Of a stretch of 22,938 nt of DNA, positions 55-20,153 are shown piece by piece (the stretch's first letter is position 1; every line of letters starts with the position of its first letter). Both the position numbers and the translations under genes were made by a program. This DNA is from a virus, in IMG/VR virus record IMGVR_UViG_3300009149_000304, positions 1 to 22,938 of that record. The stretch is one strand, 5' to 3'. The notes beneath the pieces are model-generated. The model did not search any database. It saw only the letters and a program-made list of their open reading frames with translations, and had not been told where the DNA came from.

Positions 55-657
55 ATGATAACTAAATTTAATACATATAATGAATCATTAAGAAGTAAAA
101 TGACACCTAAAACAACTAAGGAAATTGAATTAGCTATAAAGGGTTATGATAAATTAGGACAAGCTAATTTATTATTAACATTTATCAGCAATTCAATAGA
201 AAATAAAGATTTAGATTTATTAAAGTTAGTAATTACTTTTATTAAAAATAATAATTATTTTTTATTACAAATAGATAAGTATGTCAAACTCGCTGAAAGA
301 TCAGGTGATAAAGAAATTATTGATTTAGTGAACCAATTAAAAACGGGTATGAATGAATCATTAAGGAGTAAGATGACACCTAAATCCAAATTCGAAATTG
401 ATAAAAAAATTGATAAAGCATTTCGAAAGTTAGCTAATCTATTAGTAGTTAATGGACATACAAAAAATAAAGAAGAAGCAGAGGAATTTTGGTATAGTTA
501 TTATAACGATATAATTGATGCTTTAACTGATGGGTATAAAGCAAGAGATATTTATGATTCATATGATGAAATAATATTAAACACATTCGGATATTTTGAA
601 GAAGATGACGAAGATGATTATGAAGATGAATACGATACTTATAATCAACCATTTTAA
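55..657 (+). CDS. Two-module protein with capsid-targeting-like leader and ankyrin-like segment
   Basis: Not assignable to a named family. The 200 residues start M-I-T-K-F-N-T-Y-N-E-S, a leader shared with several other genes here, followed by the block S-L-R-S-K-M-T-P-K. The same block (N-E-S-L-R-S-K-M-T-P-K) returns at residues 100-110, splitting the protein into two modules of about 100 residues. In module 1, residues about 45-95 (D-L-D-L-L-K-L-V and A-E-R-S-G-D-K-E-I-I-D-L-V) resemble degenerate ankyrin repeats. Module 2 is helical and ends in a strongly acidic tail (residues about 180-194). No catalytic motif is seen. By analogy with T4 internal head proteins I infer packaging in the capsid and cleavage after Asn-Glu, possibly at both blocks. 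The ATG at 55 is the start that preserves the leader. Confidence 0.8.
   Translation: MITKFNTYNESLRSKMTPKTTKEIELAIKGYDKLGQANLLLTFISNSIENKDLDLLKLVITFIKNNNYFLLQIDKYVKLAERSGDKEIIDLVNQLKTGMNESLRSKMTPKSKFEIDKKIDKAFRKLANLLVVNGHTKNKEEAEEFWYSYYNDIIDALTDGYKARDIYDSYDEIILNTFGYFEEDDEDDYEDEYDTYNQPF
79..129 (+). repeat. N-E-S-x-R block, copy 1 of 7
   Basis: Encodes residues 9-25 of the gene at 55 (N-E-S-L-R-S-K-M-T-P-K, then T-T-K-E-I-E). It directly follows the leader. The DNA resembles copy 2 closely, suggesting duplication within the gene. Confidence 0.85.
352..402 (+). repeat. N-E-S-x-R block, copy 2 of 7 (internal)
   Basis: Encodes residues 100-116 of the gene at 55 (N-E-S-L-R-S-K-M-T-P-K-S, then K-F-E-I-D). 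The first eleven residues match copy 1 exactly. It sits in the middle of the protein, preceded by T-G-M, so it cannot be an N-terminal signal in the intact product. Confidence 0.85.
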
Positions 658-3226: not shown

Positions 3227-3232
3227 TTTTAA

Positions 3233-10243: not shown

Positions 10244-12646
10244 ATGGAAAATTTAAATGCACTAAAATTATTTAACGAATTACAGGCTGTTGATGATTAT
10301 AAAAAAGTCAATGAAATTTTGTTAAAATACAATTTCATTACTAATAAAGGTAAAATCCAACCCGTTAAGAAAAATTGGAAAGTTCTTGGGGGTGATAAAC
10401 ATATACAAATAGCATCTGTTCACAATCAACAAAGTGATTCAAAAGGTGCTATTGTAGAAAAAATTACTAATTGTATTGATGCTATTGTTAAAAATGATGT
10501 TAAATCAAAACAAATAAAAGCAAAATCTTTTAATGATGCTGTTCAAACTGCTTGTAATGATAAAATTATAAAAAACAAAATCATTGGTATACAAAATTTT
10601 GAAAAACAATATGATTTATTTTTAGTTGCAACAGGTGATAAAGATGATACCGAAAATACTGCTTTATCTTTTATAGATAGGGGAATTGGTCAACCTAATT
10701 CTGATTTTGAAAAAACATTTTTATCAATAAACCAAGGATATAAAATGGAACAACCAGATCAACATGGACAATTTCATATGGGTGGTTTAGGTGCATTAAC
10801 ACATAGTGTTGGTGGAACACAATTAATAATATCAAAGAGGAATCCTGAATTTAATGAATATCAAGATGAAAAAAATATGTGGTCTTTTACTATAATTAAA
10901 GAATTTACTGGTGATGATGGTATGCCAATCTTTTATTATCTAATTATAGATAACAAAATTCCTAATTTTAATGTAGGGAGTTTACCCATTATACCAAAAA
11001 AACACTCACAAAAAGATATTAGACGAAACGGAACATATTTGGAATATGGCACTTTAGTAAAAAACTATAGTTATAAGTTACCTTGGGGATGTGGAACAGT
11101 TATCACATCCAATTTAAAATATAATTTAAATCATTTATTACCATCTATCCCATTTCCTATAAATTTTCTTGAATTAAGAAAAGGGTATAATGATGGTAAA
11201 AATCGAAATAGTAAATTTATTGGACTAGAAGAACAATTGGTATCTAGTGATTTAGTTGAATGGGAAGATGAACCATTTAATGTGGGTGGTGTAAAAGTGA
11301 AAGTAATTGTAACCAAACGATTCACCAAAAAAAATGCAGATAAAGATGATAAAGAAACAAGGGTTTTAAACGAAGCAAGAAGATGTATTCACAAAATAAA
11401 TTATCAAACACATTATATCGAATCAACAACGGTAAATAAGTACATAGATAATCATGGTTTAAGTTTTATTAAAAACTCAATAATATTTATTGTAGATTAT
11501 TCAAATTTATCTATGGGTGAAAAATTATCTGTTTTCCAAGCAAATAGAGAATCTGTTAAAAAAACATCAGATATTTACAATAAAGTAATGTATCAAATTG
11601 ATGATTATTTAAGAGATAGTAAGGAATTAAAAAGGATTAAAAATAAAAGAAAAAATGAAATGGATTCATCTGAACCCGAATCATTAGAAAAAATGTTTAC
11701 TGAAGATTTTTTTGTTGGTGAAAATACACTATCATCATTAAATTGTGATAATTTAATAAGTAATTTTAAAAATTCTGATATGTTTGTTGGTGGTATGAAT
11801 GATGAAAATGGTGATGAAAATGAATCAAAGACAGAGCCAACATATTTAGATATTAAAGATTTTATTAATAAGTATAAAGAAACCCCGAAATTAGTAAAAT
11901 CACAAGGAAAATTTAGTTTAAAATTTTTAATGGATAATGATGATTATGTACCAACATTTGTTTTAAATGGTCAAACTATTACATCTTCAAGAACAAAAGC
12001 ATTATATGAAGGGCAGAACAAAGGAAAATATTTATATACTCTTGTTTTCGATAATAAAAAAATTAAAATGATTGATGATCAAATTTATGATATGATAATT
12101 GTTTTAACCGAACAAAAAACGAGTAAAACTATTGCAGGTAATATTAAAATAAAATATGACTCAACACCAGGTATAGGTTCAAGTTCGTCTAAAAAAGGGA
12201 AAAATGATAAAAAAGACAAACAAAAATTTGATATACGTTCATTATTTGAATATAAAATCAAATCATTAAAAGAATTAAAAGAAATGTTTTTTGATGATGA
12301 AAGCTTTGACGAAAAATCTTTTACACATAATGTAAAAGATGATAATAAGTTAATTATTTATTTTAACAAGGATTATATATCTTATAAAAATGCATTGAGT
12401 CAAGTCAAAAACCCTAAAACACTTGAAACAGTTCAACAAAACATATTATGGGATCATATTCGTACTTCAATCAATGGGTGGAATGTTTTTTCAGGAAAAA
12501 TCAAAGAAATTGAAGAAACATCAAAAAATGAAATTGAAGAAGTAATAAGAGTTTCTAATTTATCTGATGATATTAATACATCATCAAAAATTAGTTCAAA
12601 TATTCTTATTGCTAACACACTTAAATATTATTTATCTAAAAATTAA
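10244..12646 (+). CDS. GHKL (Hsp90/MutL-like) ATPase-fold protein, likely conflict-related
   Basis: An 800-residue protein with an N-terminal GHKL ATP-binding fold. The N box is at residues 72-80 (E-K-I-T-N-C-I-D-A; Glu72, Asn76, Asp79), the G1 box at 145-149 (D-R-G-I-G), the G2 lid at 175-185 (G-Q-F-H-M-G-G-L-G-A-L), and a following R-N-G-T at 261-264. A transducer-like middle region is plausible. The second half (about 460-800) has a Lys-rich linker near 675 and no nuclease motif that I can see. It has its own host-type promoter and palindrome array, and sits tail-to-tail with a DNA methyltransferase with overlapping stop codons. I infer a defence, anti-restriction or superinfection-exclusion role. 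MutL-like ATPases in bacterial defence operons are the nearest known concept, but I cannot place it in a named system. Confidence 0.75.
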   Translation: MENLNALKLFNELQAVDDYKKVNEILLKYNFITNKGKIQPVKKNWKVLGGDKHIQIASVHNQQSDSKGAIVEKITNCIDAIVKNDVKSKQIKAKSFNDAVQTACNDKIIKNKIIGIQNFEKQYDLFLVATGDKDDTENTALSFIDRGIGQPNSDFEKTFLSINQGYKMEQPDQHGQFHMGGLGALTHSVGGTQLIISKRNPEFNEYQDEKNMWSFTIIKEFTGDDGMPIFYYLIIDNKIPNFNVGSLPIIPKKHSQKDIRRNGTYLEYGTLVKNYSYKLPWGCGTVITSNLKYNLNHLLPSIPFPINFLELRKGYNDGKNRNSKFIGLEEQLVSSDLVEWEDEPFNVGGVKVKVIVTKRFTKKNADKDDKETRVLNEARRCIHKINYQTHYIESTTVNKYIDNHGLSFIKNSIIFIVDYSNLSMGEKLSVFQANRESVKKTSDIYNKVMYQIDDYLRDSKELKRIKNKRKNEMDSSEPESLEKMFTEDFFVGENTLSSLNCDNLISNFKNSDMFVGGMNDENGDENESKTEPTYLDIKDFINKYKETPKLVKSQGKFSLKFLMDNDDYVPTFVLNGQTITSSRTKALYEGQNKGKYLYTLVFDNKKIKMIDDQIYDMIIVLTEQKTSKTIAGNIKIKYDSTPGIGSSSSKKGKNDKKDKQKFDIRSLFEYKIKSLKELKEMFFDDESFDEKSFTHNVKDDNKLIIYFNKDYISYKNALSQVKNPKTLETVQQNILWDHIRTSINGWNVFSGKIKEIEETSKNEIEEVIRVSNLSDDINTSSKISSNILIANTLKYYLSKN

Positions 12647-13347
12647 TTTATTTTAACAACCTTATCAATGGTTAGGTCACAGAATTCTTTATCTAATTCT
12701 ATACCTAACCATTTTTTATTGAGCTGTTCTGATGCTAATGCAACTGTACCACTTCCCATAAATGGGTCTAATATAATTTCCGATTCAGGAAAACAACTAA
12801 TAATATCCAGGGGCATCTGTAAAGGGAATGCCCTTGTGTGTTTATTTTTAGTTCCAACTGGTTTCCATTCAGTTCTATCAAATACATCGTGTTTGCTTAG
12901 TGTGTTTATTAATTTAGTTTTTGGTGATTTAGTCATCCAATATATCCTTTCAGTAAAAGGATAAAATCTAATTTTATCAAAATTATAACTACCATTGACC
13001 CAAACAATTTCTTGTTTTATTATCATATTTGTTTTTAATAACCATTCATAGGGTGTTATTTGAATTCCTTTTCTTATTCTATTCTTATGATTATAAAACA
13101 TACTACCGTTATCCTTCAATATTCGATAACATTCATTTATAATTTCAATTTGCCATTGTTGATATTCATCTTCAGGAAGATTATCATCATAGCATTGTGT
13201 TTTCTTTGTGTTTGTATGGTGATTATTACCTAAATTATAAGGTGGTGAAGTTATTATTAAATCAACAGTACTATTACCTATTTTTCTTATTTCTTCTAAA
13301 ATATCTCCTTTATATAATATCCCATTATCATTTTCGTAATATATCAA
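12643..13347 (-). CDS. Beta-class DNA methyltransferase (N4-cytosine or N6-adenine)
   Basis: Transfers a methyl group from S-adenosylmethionine to an exocyclic amino group in DNA. Catalytic motif IV is T-S-P-P-Y-N at residues 33-38. The AdoMet-binding motif I is D-P-F-M-G-S-G-T at 194-201, near the C-terminus, followed by W-L-G-I-E-L-D. The order IV before I defines the beta class. T-S-P-P-Y is most typical of N4-cytosine enzymes but also occurs in some N6-adenine ones. The 234 residues form a compact enzyme with little room for a target-recognition domain. The start is TTG at 13345-13347, because no ATG or GTG lies between the in-frame upstream stop (13384-13386) and motif IV. Its stop overlaps the ATPase stop. 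No restriction nuclease is adjacent, so it may protect phage DNA or pair with the ATPase. Confidence 0.88.
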   Translation of the reverse strand: MIYYENDNGILYKGDILEEIRKIGNSTVDLIITSPPYNLGNNHHTNTKKTQCYDDNLPEDEYQQWQIEIINECYRILKDNGSMFYNHKNRIRKGIQITPYEWLLKTNMIIKQEIVWVNGSYNFDKIRFYPFTERIYWMTKSPKTKLINTLSKHDVFDRTEWKPVGTKNKHTRAFPLQMPLDIISCFPESEIILDPFMGSGTVALASEQLNKKWLGIELDKEFCDLTIDKVVKIN

Positions 13348-17408: not shown

Positions 17409-17416
17409 GATTTTAA

Positions 17417-17424
17417 TATATAAT
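17417..17424 (+). promoter_or_regulatory. Late-like box TATATAAT only 3 nt before a start codon
   Basis: Lies within TTTTAATATATAAT, ending 3 nt before the ATG at 17428. A promoter here would start transcription at about the ATG itself, implying a leaderless mRNA or a different role for the box. Confidence 0.35.
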
Positions 17425-17427
17425 CTT

Positions 17428-17844
17428 ATGAAATACATTAAACCATATAATGAATCTATAAGGGATGAAATGAAACCTAAATCTGATGAAGAATTACCAA
17501 AGGAACATAGTAAATTAATAGAATTACTAAAATATATTCAAAATAATTCAGAATTAGAACCAGAATTAAATATGATAGATGGTATTGATGATGATTATCC
17601 AGCAATAAAAATTCATTTAAAATTTAATGATGATGAATATTTGTGGTTTGAAATTACATATAATATGTATGGTAATGATGAATATAATCTATCAATAGAA
17701 AATGAAGTTGAAAGTTTTAAAACTATAGAAGAAGTGTATAATACCATGATAATTGAAATCAAAGAATTTATCAACGGGGAATTAGAGAAAATAATATCCA
17801 AGAAAGATAAAATAGAAAAAATATTAAAAAGTATAGAAAATTAA
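17428..17844 (+). CDS. Leader-tagged hypothetical protein (single N-E-S-x-R block)
   Basis: 138 residues. The leader M-K-Y-I-K-P-Y-N-E is followed by the block S-I-R-D-E-M-K-P-K-S-D-E-E-L. The remainder is acidic, with a beta region (A-I-K-I-H-L-K-F-N-D-D-E-Y-L-W-F-E-I-T-Y) and a C-terminal charged helix (E-L-E-K-I-I-S-K-K-D-K-I-E-K-I-L). No enzymatic motif is seen. It is first of three tandem block-bearing genes separated by 1 nt each, so they are co-transcribed and translationally coupled. I infer a packaged internal protein whose leader is cut after Glu9. Confidence 0.8.
   Translation: MKYIKPYNESIRDEMKPKSDEELPKEHSKLIELLKYIQNNSELEPELNMIDGIDDDYPAIKIHLKFNDDEYLWFEITYNMYGNDEYNLSIENEVESFKTIEEVYNTMIIEIKEFINGELEKIISKKDKIEKILKSIEN
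17449..17496 (+). repeat. N-E-S-x-R block, copy 3 of 7
   Basis: Residues 8-23 of the gene at 17428: N-E-S-I-R-D-E-M-K-P-K-S-D-E-E-L. Confidence 0.85.
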
Positions 17845-17845
17845 A

Positions 17846-18307
17846 ATGATACACAAATTTAATCAATATAATGAATCTATAAGGGATAAAATGTCACCTA
17901 AGTCTGAAGAAGAAATAGATGATGTAATAAAGAATTTAAACCCCCAAGAATTATTAATGAAAGCAATATTTGATTTACAAGATATATCTTTAGTTAAAGA
18001 AGCCCTTAAAAGGGGTGCAGACCCATCCAAAGATAAAAATCAAATCTTAAAGGATATAATTTTAACTTGGCATTATGATGAAGCTATACTCGAAATTTTA
18101 GAAGGTGATGTTTTAGGAGATGCTGGACCATATCTTGTTGATAATTGGTTTATTGGTCATTGTTTAGATGATTCCGAAGAAGTGCAAAAAGAAACTATGG
18201 AATTTTTTACTGAAACACTTAAACTATTACTTAAAAACGAAAGGGTAAAAGATCATCTAACTGCATTAGATGTATTAGGATATAGAACAATATTAGGAGT
18301 AAAATAA
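17846..18307 (+). CDS. Leader-tagged ankyrin-like protein
   Basis: 153 residues. The leader M-I-H-K-F-N-Q-Y-N-E is followed by the block S-I-R-D-K-M-S-P-K-S-E-E-E-I-D. Residues about 36-62 (L-L-M-K-A-I-F-D-L-Q-D-I-S-L-V-K-E-A-L-K-R-G-A-D-P) fit one ankyrin repeat well, and degenerate repeat-like helices follow. Ankyrin repeats bind proteins and are common in injected or secreted effectors, so host-protein binding after entry is a reasonable inference. It lies 1 nt after the upstream gene and 1 nt before the next. It is similar in design to module 1 of the gene at 55. Confidence 0.8.
   Translation: MIHKFNQYNESIRDKMSPKSEEEIDDVIKNLNPQELLMKAIFDLQDISLVKEALKRGADPSKDKNQILKDIILTWHYDEAILEILEGDVLGDAGPYLVDNWFIGHCLDDSEEVQKETMEFFTETLKLLLKNERVKDHLTALDVLGYRTILGVK
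17870..17920 (+). repeat. N-E-S-x-R block, copy 4 of 7
   Basis: Residues 9-25 of the gene at 17846: N-E-S-I-R-D-K-M-S-P-K-S-E-E-E-I-D. Confidence 0.85.
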
Positions 18308-18308
18308 T

Positions 18309-19250
18309 ATGAAATATTTACAAACATATAATGAGTCTTTAAGAGATCAAATGTCACCTAAATCTGATGAAGAAATAGATGAATTATGGAAAGATATATC
18401 TGATCAAGCTGCAAAAAATGTAATGGAATGGGATACATTATCATATGTAGATGCATTAAATCTTGTTAGAAAGAATAAGAAGAAAGTAATTATTATGAAG
18501 AATGATGGATGGCCATATGATTTAATTGGTCACGAATTATTATGGCCTGATAAAATAGAAGAATCATTAAGGGATGAAATGAAACCTAAAAGTGATGAAG
18601 AAATGAAAAACATAGTTAAGAATTATAATCTTAAACAAAAGAAACAATTTCTTTTTAAATTATATAAAAGTGGATTTAGTAATGATAAATATAAATTTTA
18701 TAATTATATCAGATTAATGTTAGGTATATCAGTTTGGAATAGAATTTTGAAACAAATTAAATTAAATCCAAGTAAAGTTAACGTGTTACATGTTCACCCT
18801 ATGGAATTTATTGACGTTTTTAATAAATATGAAGTAGATAAGCTAATAGAATTATTATTAAATATGGATAAAAAGACTAATGAATCTATAAGAGATCGAA
18901 TGTCACCTAAATCAAAAGAAGAAATTTTAAGTTCATTAGATGGTGATCCAAATGCTACATTTAAAAAAGTTAATAGAGATATGCTTAGTTCTTGGATGAT
19001 AGGTGAAATAAATACTACATACGATGATCTTGTAAAATTATTTGGTAAACCAAAAGAAGATGATTGGATTGGTAATAATTTTATATGGGTTCTTAAAACA
19101 AATAATAATAGACTTATAAGTATATATGACAATAATTCAGGTTTAGATAAAGATGAAATGAAGGATATATCATACAAATGGCATATCGGTGGTACAGTTA
19201 ACCAGGATGCAAATGATTTGGTAGCTTATATTATGAAAAACACAATTTAA
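18309..19250 (+). CDS. Three-module leader-tagged protein, candidate cleaved polyprotein
   Basis: 313 residues made of three unrelated modules, each opened by the same block. Module 1 (1-83) has the leader M-K-Y-L-Q-T-Y-N-E, then S-L-R-D-Q-M-S-P-K. Module 2 (84-190) opens I-E-E-S-L-R-D-E-M-K-P-K and is helical and basic. Module 3 (191-313) opens T-N-E-S-I-R-D-R-M-S-P-K and contains a compact domain (T-T-Y-D-D-L-V-K-L-F-G-K-P, then I-S-I-Y-D and W-H-I-G-G). I have seen that domain as a stand-alone small protein in other phages; its function is unknown to me. If the prohead protease cuts after Glu as in T4 ((I/L)-x-E), module 2 has a perfect site, I-E-E. I infer release of three mini-proteins. 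The stop overlaps the AT-rich lead-in to the next box. Confidence 0.8.
   Translation: MKYLQTYNESLRDQMSPKSDEEIDELWKDISDQAAKNVMEWDTLSYVDALNLVRKNKKKVIIMKNDGWPYDLIGHELLWPDKIEESLRDEMKPKSDEEMKNIVKNYNLKQKKQFLFKLYKSGFSNDKYKFYNYIRLMLGISVWNRILKQIKLNPSKVNVLHVHPMEFIDVFNKYEVDKLIELLLNMDKKTNESIRDRMSPKSKEEILSSLDGDPNATFKKVNRDMLSSWMIGEINTTYDDLVKLFGKPKEDDWIGNNFIWVLKTNNNRLISIYDNNSGLDKDEMKDISYKWHIGGTVNQDANDLVAYIMKNTI
18330..18380 (+). repeat. N-E-S-x-R block, copy 5 of 7
   Basis: Residues 8-24 of the gene at 18309: N-E-S-L-R-D-Q-M-S-P-K-S-D-E-E-I-D. Confidence 0.85.
18558..18605 (+). repeat. N-E-S-x-R block, copy 6 of 7 (internal)
   Basis: Residues 84-99 of the gene at 18309: E-E-S-L-R-D-E-M-K-P-K-S-D-E-E-M. 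It is preceded by Ile, giving I-E-E before Ser, the T4-type cleavage pattern. Confidence 0.85.
18879..18929 (+). repeat. N-E-S-x-R block, copy 7 of 7 (internal)
   Basis: Residues 191-207 of the gene at 18309: N-E-S-I-R-D-R-M-S-P-K-S-K-E-E-I-L. Confidence 0.85.
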
Positions 19251-19262: not shown

Positions 19263-20153
19263 ATGGTAAAGAATTACACAGATTTTATAAAGATGAATGA
19301 AGCACAAGATGAATTTGGTGGTACTAAAGCAGCTAAAGGGATTGGTGGTTTATTTAAAAACTTATTAGGTGGTTTACTTAAAGATGTTAAAGATGAACTT
19401 AAAAAACCTTTAGAAGAATTTAATAAGAAGTTAGGTAATCAAAAAGGTTTTGATGATAAGATTGATGTAGCAAATAAGTACTTTCTTCAACATAGAGATA
19501 TATTAGTTAATAGCTTTACCGAAGCAACAACATTACCTACTATTTTAACAACAGTAGAAGATAATATAAGAACTGCTTATGCATCTATCGGTTCAACTAT
19601 TAAAAATTTAAATACTGATAATTACACTTTAGAAAAACTTTATGGTGATTCTCCAGAAAGAACTAAAAAATTGTTTAGTAATGATGCAAAACTTTTTGAT
19701 AAAAATGTTGAACAATTTTCAAGAGATTTAATTTTAAATCTTGGTAAACCTTATGACATTACTGAAGAAGATTTAGATGGAACACCAGAAGAAGCACAAG
19801 ATCAACAACAAAAAGGTGAAATAGCACAAGCACAAGGTGAAACTGAAACACCACAAGAAGAAGCTGAAAGTCCAAAAGATTTAACTAAGCTAAAAGAAGC
19901 TATTACAAATTGGTTCGATGCAACTATTTATAAAATCAATAAGAAGAAATTAGAAGAAGTTAAAAAAGAAGGTGCTAAAAAACCAAAAGAAGGTGGTAAT
20001 ATTGATGCTAAATTAGAAGCTATCCCAGATGATGTAACACGAAATAAAGATAGTGTTAAAAATATGGCTAATAAATTAGCTGATCTTGATAAACAAACAC
20101 TAATGAAAGTAAGAGATTTAATGGGAATGGATAAAAACGATACACCATTATAA
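19263..20153 (+). CDS. Leader-tagged helical protein, probable internal or structural head protein
   Basis: 296 residues. The leader M-V-K-N-Y-T-D-F-I-K-M-N-E is followed directly by A-Q-D-E, without the S-x-R block. A Gly-rich amphipathic segment comes next (about 24-50, G-I-G-G-L-F-K-N-L-L-G-G-L-L-K-D), which could contact membranes. A long helical region with Thr/Leu-rich stretches follows, then a Gln/Glu/Pro-rich low-complexity linker (about 178-205) and a Lys-rich helical C-terminus. No enzyme motif is seen. Abundant charged helices plus the leader fit a packaged internal protein or a scaffold-like component. It ends the leader-tagged cluster. Confidence 0.75.
   Translation: MVKNYTDFIKMNEAQDEFGGTKAAKGIGGLFKNLLGGLLKDVKDELKKPLEEFNKKLGNQKGFDDKIDVANKYFLQHRDILVNSFTEATTLPTILTTVEDNIRTAYASIGSTIKNLNTDNYTLEKLYGDSPERTKKLFSNDAKLFDKNVEQFSRDLILNLGKPYDITEEDLDGTPEEAQDQQQKGEIAQAQGETETPQEEAESPKDLTKLKEAITNWFDATIYKINKKKLEEVKKEGAKKPKEGGNIDAKLEAIPDDVTRNKDSVKNMANKLADLDKQTLMKVRDLMGMDKNDTPL

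Follow-up and report, generated by a model that had tools for sequence, protein, structure and literature searches.

The internal proteins of phage T4 (IPI, IPII and IPIII) and Alt are built from a short, conserved targeting and processing leader with diverse bodies behind it (PMC3012670, PMC9026906). The targeting sequence is exchangeable, and IPI has a known anti-restriction role (PMC3012670, PMC9026906). In IPIII a stretch of ten N-terminal residues is enough for incorporation, positions 4 and 7 acting in targeting and positions 8 and 10 in processing (PMC9026906). In SPN3US and phiKZ, head and ejection proteins are cut after Glu at a short motif by a gp21-like protease, with Ser preferred at P1' and several cuts per chain, but these cuts fragment a discarded propeptide and do not yield several kept modules (PMC10052503, PMC5694885). 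The polyvalent proteins of phages and conjugative elements are multidomain and shuffled, and are proposed to be packaged and injected, some of them being released proteolytically; they have been compared to the polyproteins of RNA viruses. They carry large known effector domains, often with a peptidase of their own, and the parts of the source available to us describe no repeated border tag (PMC5512222).

The locus described here lies in a 22.9-kb virus record, a genome fragment, the whole of which is called the window below. Its tagged genes follow the T4 plan of a short leader ahead of diverse bodies, and one ORF carries the tag at the start of each of three modules. To our knowledge, T4 internal proteins are single-module and have neither an RDxMxPK extension nor internal copies of a tag. 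Five huge phages that are the nearest relatives of the window by their tail sheath possess the same leader type together with gp21 and gp23 homologues, and the exact block pattern of the window, ESxRxxMxPK, is absent from all five.

Layout of the ORF and its neighbours

The ORF at 18309-19250 (plus strand) is intact, starts with ATG and encodes 313 aa. It opens with MKYLQTYNE (18309-18335), which resembles a capsid-targeting leader, with a putative cut after E9 by the logic of T4 IPIII (PMC9026906). A sequence-only reading of this DNA had placed copies of one block at residues 8, 84 and 191, and all three are present in the open frame, both in the translation and by DNA pattern: block 1, NESLRDQMSPK (18330-18362; Ser10), block 2, EESLRDEMKPK (18558-18590; I-E-E↓S with Ser86, the arrow marking the putative cut), and block 3, NESIRDRMSPK (18879-18911; T-N-E↓S with Ser193). 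They precede, respectively, module A (18363-18557), for which a relative was not found, the all-helical module B (18591-18878) and the alpha/beta module C (18912-19247). None of the modules matches a Pfam or PHROG family over threshold. The ORF has distinct modules, and no known effector or embedded peptidase domain of the kind seen in polyvalent proteins (Pfam, PHROG).

An AlphaFold2 model of the ORF, built from five sequences, is of modest confidence (mean pLDDT 60.3). Module B is helical and C alpha/beta in this model, confidence is low over A, block 2 and the B-C junction (pLDDT <50 at residues 188-195), and the PDB matches of C start after block 3. The model is in weak agreement with domains that are separate and borders that are exposed; a continuous fold with the blocks buried inside it, which the sequence-only reading had named as contrary to its proposal, is not seen at this modest confidence. 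The model of a cousin with a similar architecture (L006:3631-4683, minus strand) was too poor for use (mean pLDDT 51.8). In a fold search, module C matched best to a PDB entry with a widespread alpha/beta arrangement (Z 10.1, 106 residues), followed by adaptin appendage folds, and no function was inferred for C from these matches.

Written as a degenerate DNA pattern, ESxRxxMxPK occurs seven times in the window and not once in 100 dinucleotide-preserving shuffles. Codons vary between blocks (Ser TCT/TCA/AGT, Leu TTA/CTA/CTT/CTC, Pro CCT/CCC/CCG), which argues that the peptide is conserved and not a DNA word. Two single-module genes with the block right behind an N-terminal leader, as had been claimed for the neighbourhood, lie on the same strand at 17428-17844 (MKYIKPYNE↓SIRDEMKPK) and at 17846-18307, directly upstream of the three-module ORF (MIHKFNQYNE↓SIRDKMSPK). 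An ORF with two blocks (55-657, plus strand; blocks at 79-111 and 352-384) had escaped the earlier reading. Further plus-strand genes have the leader without the full block: an ASCH-like protein (PHROG 625) at 703-1041 with the leader MKKFTNFVNE↓S and no RDxMxPK, an HD-domain protein at 1019-1807 with the leader MSRIKKYTGFINE↓N, and the gene that follows the three-module ORF (19263-20153), with the leader-like start MVKNYTDFIKMNE↓A. A peptide deformylase-like gene (1835-2371, recognised by eye) adjoins the tagged ASCH and HD genes.

The sequence TTTAATATATA at 17412-17422 (plus strand), ending just 5' of an ATG, is a candidate promoter of the tagged operon. It occurs at window positions 3228, 5803, 9309, 17412 and 19246, shortly 5' of genes that include those of sheath (5803) and tube (9309), and sits at -16 of several tagged genes; the sequence or its variants lie no more than 60 nt from 14 of the 35 tagged genes, compared with 0.7% of random 60-mers. 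Being common to tagged, sheath and tube genes, it fits late expression and is a candidate late promoter. Also set among the tail genes, window 10244-13347 contains an 800-aa GHKL-type ATPase-like protein (by eye), whose gene is convergent with and adjoins a DNA methyltransferase-like gene (12643-13347, minus strand); the two form a possible defence or anti-defence pair.

The Met of the block could in principle be a start codon, the modules being made by internal initiation, and the underlying AGRGAT-NNN-ATG faintly resembles a Shine-Dalgarno sequence with its ATG. The true starts of tagged genes, however, lack Shine-Dalgarno sequences (3% compared with 9% in the control), and conservation at the peptide level extends on both sides of the Met. 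We rejected internal translation start on this test, and give it next to no credence.

Tagged genes and module exchange in related contigs

Relatives were retrieved through the block as DNA among viral contigs and through module alignments. The full-length protein has no relative in IMG/VR (single-sequence scan), and annotated phages gave one weak match. The block-DNA search returned roughly a dozen genuine relatives that share the AT-rich composition of the window; GC-rich contigs (L102-L104, L106, L108-L110) were discarded as chance pattern matches, and L101, L105 and the sole bacterial match, L112, were also excluded. A looser scan gave 48 blocks in 35 ORFs on 14 contigs, 31 of them near the ORF start and 17 deeper, the latter distributed over thirteen ORFs. 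As the seeds were chosen by block pattern, overall residue counts are partly ascertained, an effect that bears less on comparisons between start-proximal and deep blocks or between blocks and their modules. The commonest recognisable cargo behind the tag is ankyrin-repeat modules (L005, L008, L012, L013, L053, L057, L116).

Three separable modules with a block at each border had been proposed from the window alone, and module swaps and stand-alone versions in relatives bear this out. The window chain reads A-B-C and that of L006 reads B-D-C, so that module B (64% identical) is N-terminal in the cousin and C is last in both. Module C is 78% identical to the third module of L006, block excluded, and 42% identical to the last module of L012, where it follows ankyrin repeats. 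The search for modules as separate tagged genes that the earlier reading had suggested found C alone as a complete gene with the leader MKTFNQFINE↓S (L115:4097-4558, plus strand), among others. Module D is internal in L006, stands alone in L056 and lies ahead of a poly(A)-polymerase-type nucleotidyltransferase in L054; the HD protein, alone in the window, has a counterpart in L012 that runs on into a block and an ankyrin module. One internal module of the L111 chain forms an entire gene in L053; this gene ends in TDEWMQ and a stop at the point where the L111 chain reads TDDWMTESLRD, into its next block. Relatives of module C that have no tag occur in MW202796 and, weakly, in Flavobacterium phage immuto, the better of which adjoins an antirestriction gene, so the block is something added to a domain that also occurs without it. 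C was not found in the five huge phages (LR756500, LR756501, LR756502, LR756504, LR745206).

One exchange can be followed in detail, since L111 is syntenic with L009 and L053. In L009 the order is ankyrin module, block and module F, then E as a tagged gene of its own; in L111 the same ankyrin module leads directly into E. Query positions 14-572 of the L111 gene align with L009 at 77% identity and query positions 506-748 with the separate L009 gene at 91%, and the two alignments overlap at the block only, which places the crossover inside the block. Recombination from block to block would explain how fused copies lost stop, start and leader yet kept the tag. The sequence-only reading, right about the block as a module border, had overlooked that it is also the joint of module shuffling. 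From these comparisons, we regard shuffled modules carrying a repeated tag as very likely.

Such a crossover raises the question of whether the internal blocks are simply its functionless leftovers, and a deletion between direct repeats would yield exactly the structure observed. However, the blocks have changed much less than the modules behind them: in eight module pairs, 59 of 64 block positions are identical compared with 33.7 expected from module divergence, a pairwise conservation that could partly stem from gene conversion between blocks, and their codons change synonymously. The alignment counts suggest that the internal blocks are more than mere scars, and we find a recombination scar alone very improbable.

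Head context in huge phages

Near-identical DNA to the window was not found among annotated phages. The tail sheath of the window (1127 aa, PHROG 34521) is 35-47% identical to those of five huge phages of 462-735 kb (LR756500, LR756501, LR756502, LR756504, LR745206), and 33% identical to that of Flavobacterium phage MaF61. We take the five to be the huge phages of Al-Shayeb et al. 2020 (PMC7162821). The sheath relatives, together with AT-rich starts that lack Shine-Dalgarno sequences, make a Bacteroidota host likely.

All five huge phages have matches to PF03420 (Peptidase_S77) and PF07068 (gp23), which exceed the curated cut-off in one phage for the former and in all five for the latter. At its N-terminus gp23 has H-x-(I/M)-N-E-N in three of the phages and IHEN or LYEN in the other two, and gp23 of this clade and dozens of leaders have sites resembling x-N-E↓(A/S/G/N). 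N-terminal leaders were counted in 48 of 825 genes of LR756501, compared with 3.5-4.2 expected (L064-L100), in 17 genes in 400 kb of LR745206, compared with about two, and in nine in 400 kb of LR756500, compared with about three, a weak enrichment. The absence of the block pattern from all five makes RDxMxPK look like an addition of the window's lineage. Protease and capsid genes are absent from the window and from the block-bearing contigs (G001-G008), all of them fragments, and we therefore infer the protease from the cousins, which are themselves without RDxMxPK. In LR756504, LR756501, LR756502 and LR745206 (L035-L038), the ORF of the gp21-type protease extends into 10-13 YSEYIAE repeats, mostly 14 residues apart. 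The likeness of this repeat to the capsid-targeting leader suggests mimicry of a scaffold repeat as a possible route of leaders into the core.

Leader and block might instead signal a destination other than the head, for instance as a localisation tag within the infected cell, given that none of the ankyrin, HD and nucleotidyltransferase domains is specific to the head and that the role in the virion is a proposed one. Against this, the leader matches the T4 capsid-targeting sequence in spacing and in the cut-site residue, N-E stands at the same place in the gp23 of the cousins, scaffold-like repeats lie beside the protease, and the promoter-like motif is shared with tail genes. We thus hold a non-head destination to be very unlikely, and head targeting to be likely.

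Leader and internal blocks

The T4-like pair of aromatic residues or Leu (spacing i, i+3) just before the Glu, as in the leaders MKTFNQFINE↓S and MKYLKSFNE↓S, is present at 28 of 31 start-proximal blocks and at none of the 17 deep ones, the two classes being set by position only; E↓S is kept in all deep blocks. In terms of the residue roles in IPIII, deep blocks have therefore lost the residues of targeting and retain most of those of processing. Tags that otherwise agree differ in having Ser or Gly behind the Glu, and the leaders of LR756501 have Asn, Ala, Ser or Gly there, a variation that a P1' site would be expected to show; Ser at P1' is also the preference of the SPN3US protease (PMC10052503).

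The fit to the T4 rule (I/L)-x-E, on which the earlier proposal of internal cutting leaned, holds for I83-E-E↓S, but neither for the other internal site, T-N-E↓S, nor for the N-terminal one, Y-N-E↓S. Among 18 non-leader blocks, a class set partly by the leader regex, Thr is the commonest residue at P3 (8/18) and (I/L)-x-E is found at only five, making Thr at P3 a weak point for cutting of the T4 type; LR756501 leaders favour I/L/F/V/Y at this position.

These residues bear on a further explanation, in which head targeting is followed by removal of the leader alone, the modules staying on one chain as in some polyvalent proteins, and the internal blocks are docking or structural segments such as a helix N-cap. 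The frequent Thr at P3 would suit an uncut chain, as would the reach of RDxMxPKSxEEI well beyond any known protease site and into a predicted helix, and the parts of the source on polyvalent-type proteins available to us include some that are packaged or transferred unprocessed (PMC5512222). What such a chain would not call for is the internal retention of NE↓S itself, beyond RDxMxPK alone, nor the occurrence of its modules in turn as separate genes, which would have this very Ser as their mature start. We judge the uncut chain unlikely, if the most serious competitor to internal cutting, which remains a plausible reading of these sites. RDxMxPK is dispensable for cleavage in known systems, and its conservation may therefore mean a second function.

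Discussion

The comparisons presented here make a shuffled multi-module head-cargo protein a well-supported interpretation of the window ORF. We propose that it is a late-expressed cargo of a huge T4-related phage, whose leader MKYLQTYNE would, as in T4 internal proteins, direct the whole chain to the core of the prohead, and in which a portable tag, NE↓S(L/I/V)RDxMxPKS, opens every module. A gp21-type prohead protease would cut after Glu in the leader and might also do so at the internal blocks, the more tentative part of the proposal, and three small proteins, all starting SxRDxMxPK, would be freed and injected with the DNA, probably to serve early host takeover or anti-defence. The shared tag would let recombination join modules block to block, removing the downstream stop, start and leader and keeping the tag. 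Modular borders, the difference between leader and internal blocks, shuffling and block conservation are read directly from aligned genes; packaging, internal cleavage, injection and function are what we infer from them. We lean moderately towards the full model, internal cutting included.

The sequence-only reading had held that no known phage cargo system is organised in this way. That was too strong in view of the T4 internal proteins and, as far as the available parts of their description go, of the polyvalent proteins, but the repeated-tag architecture and block-to-block shuffling do appear to be undescribed, and we found no description of repeated targeting or processing tags at module borders in the open-access papers that we searched.

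Taken further, the tagged genes may form a cassette system with one leader and any number of tag-started, cut modules that are swapped by recombination at the tag, separate genes and cut polyproteins being interchangeable ways of delivering the same effectors; on this generalisation our judgement is evenly balanced. If cutting is confirmed, the ORF would be the phage equivalent, for injected effectors, of the polyproteins of viruses, and an example from nature of loading by tagging and cutting, and it would account for the shuffling of cargo. It would also provide a sequence rule to find head cargo in huge phages, whose genes mostly have no known function; even by itself, the leader marks dozens of proteins of the 735-kb phage LR756501 as candidates for head cargo.
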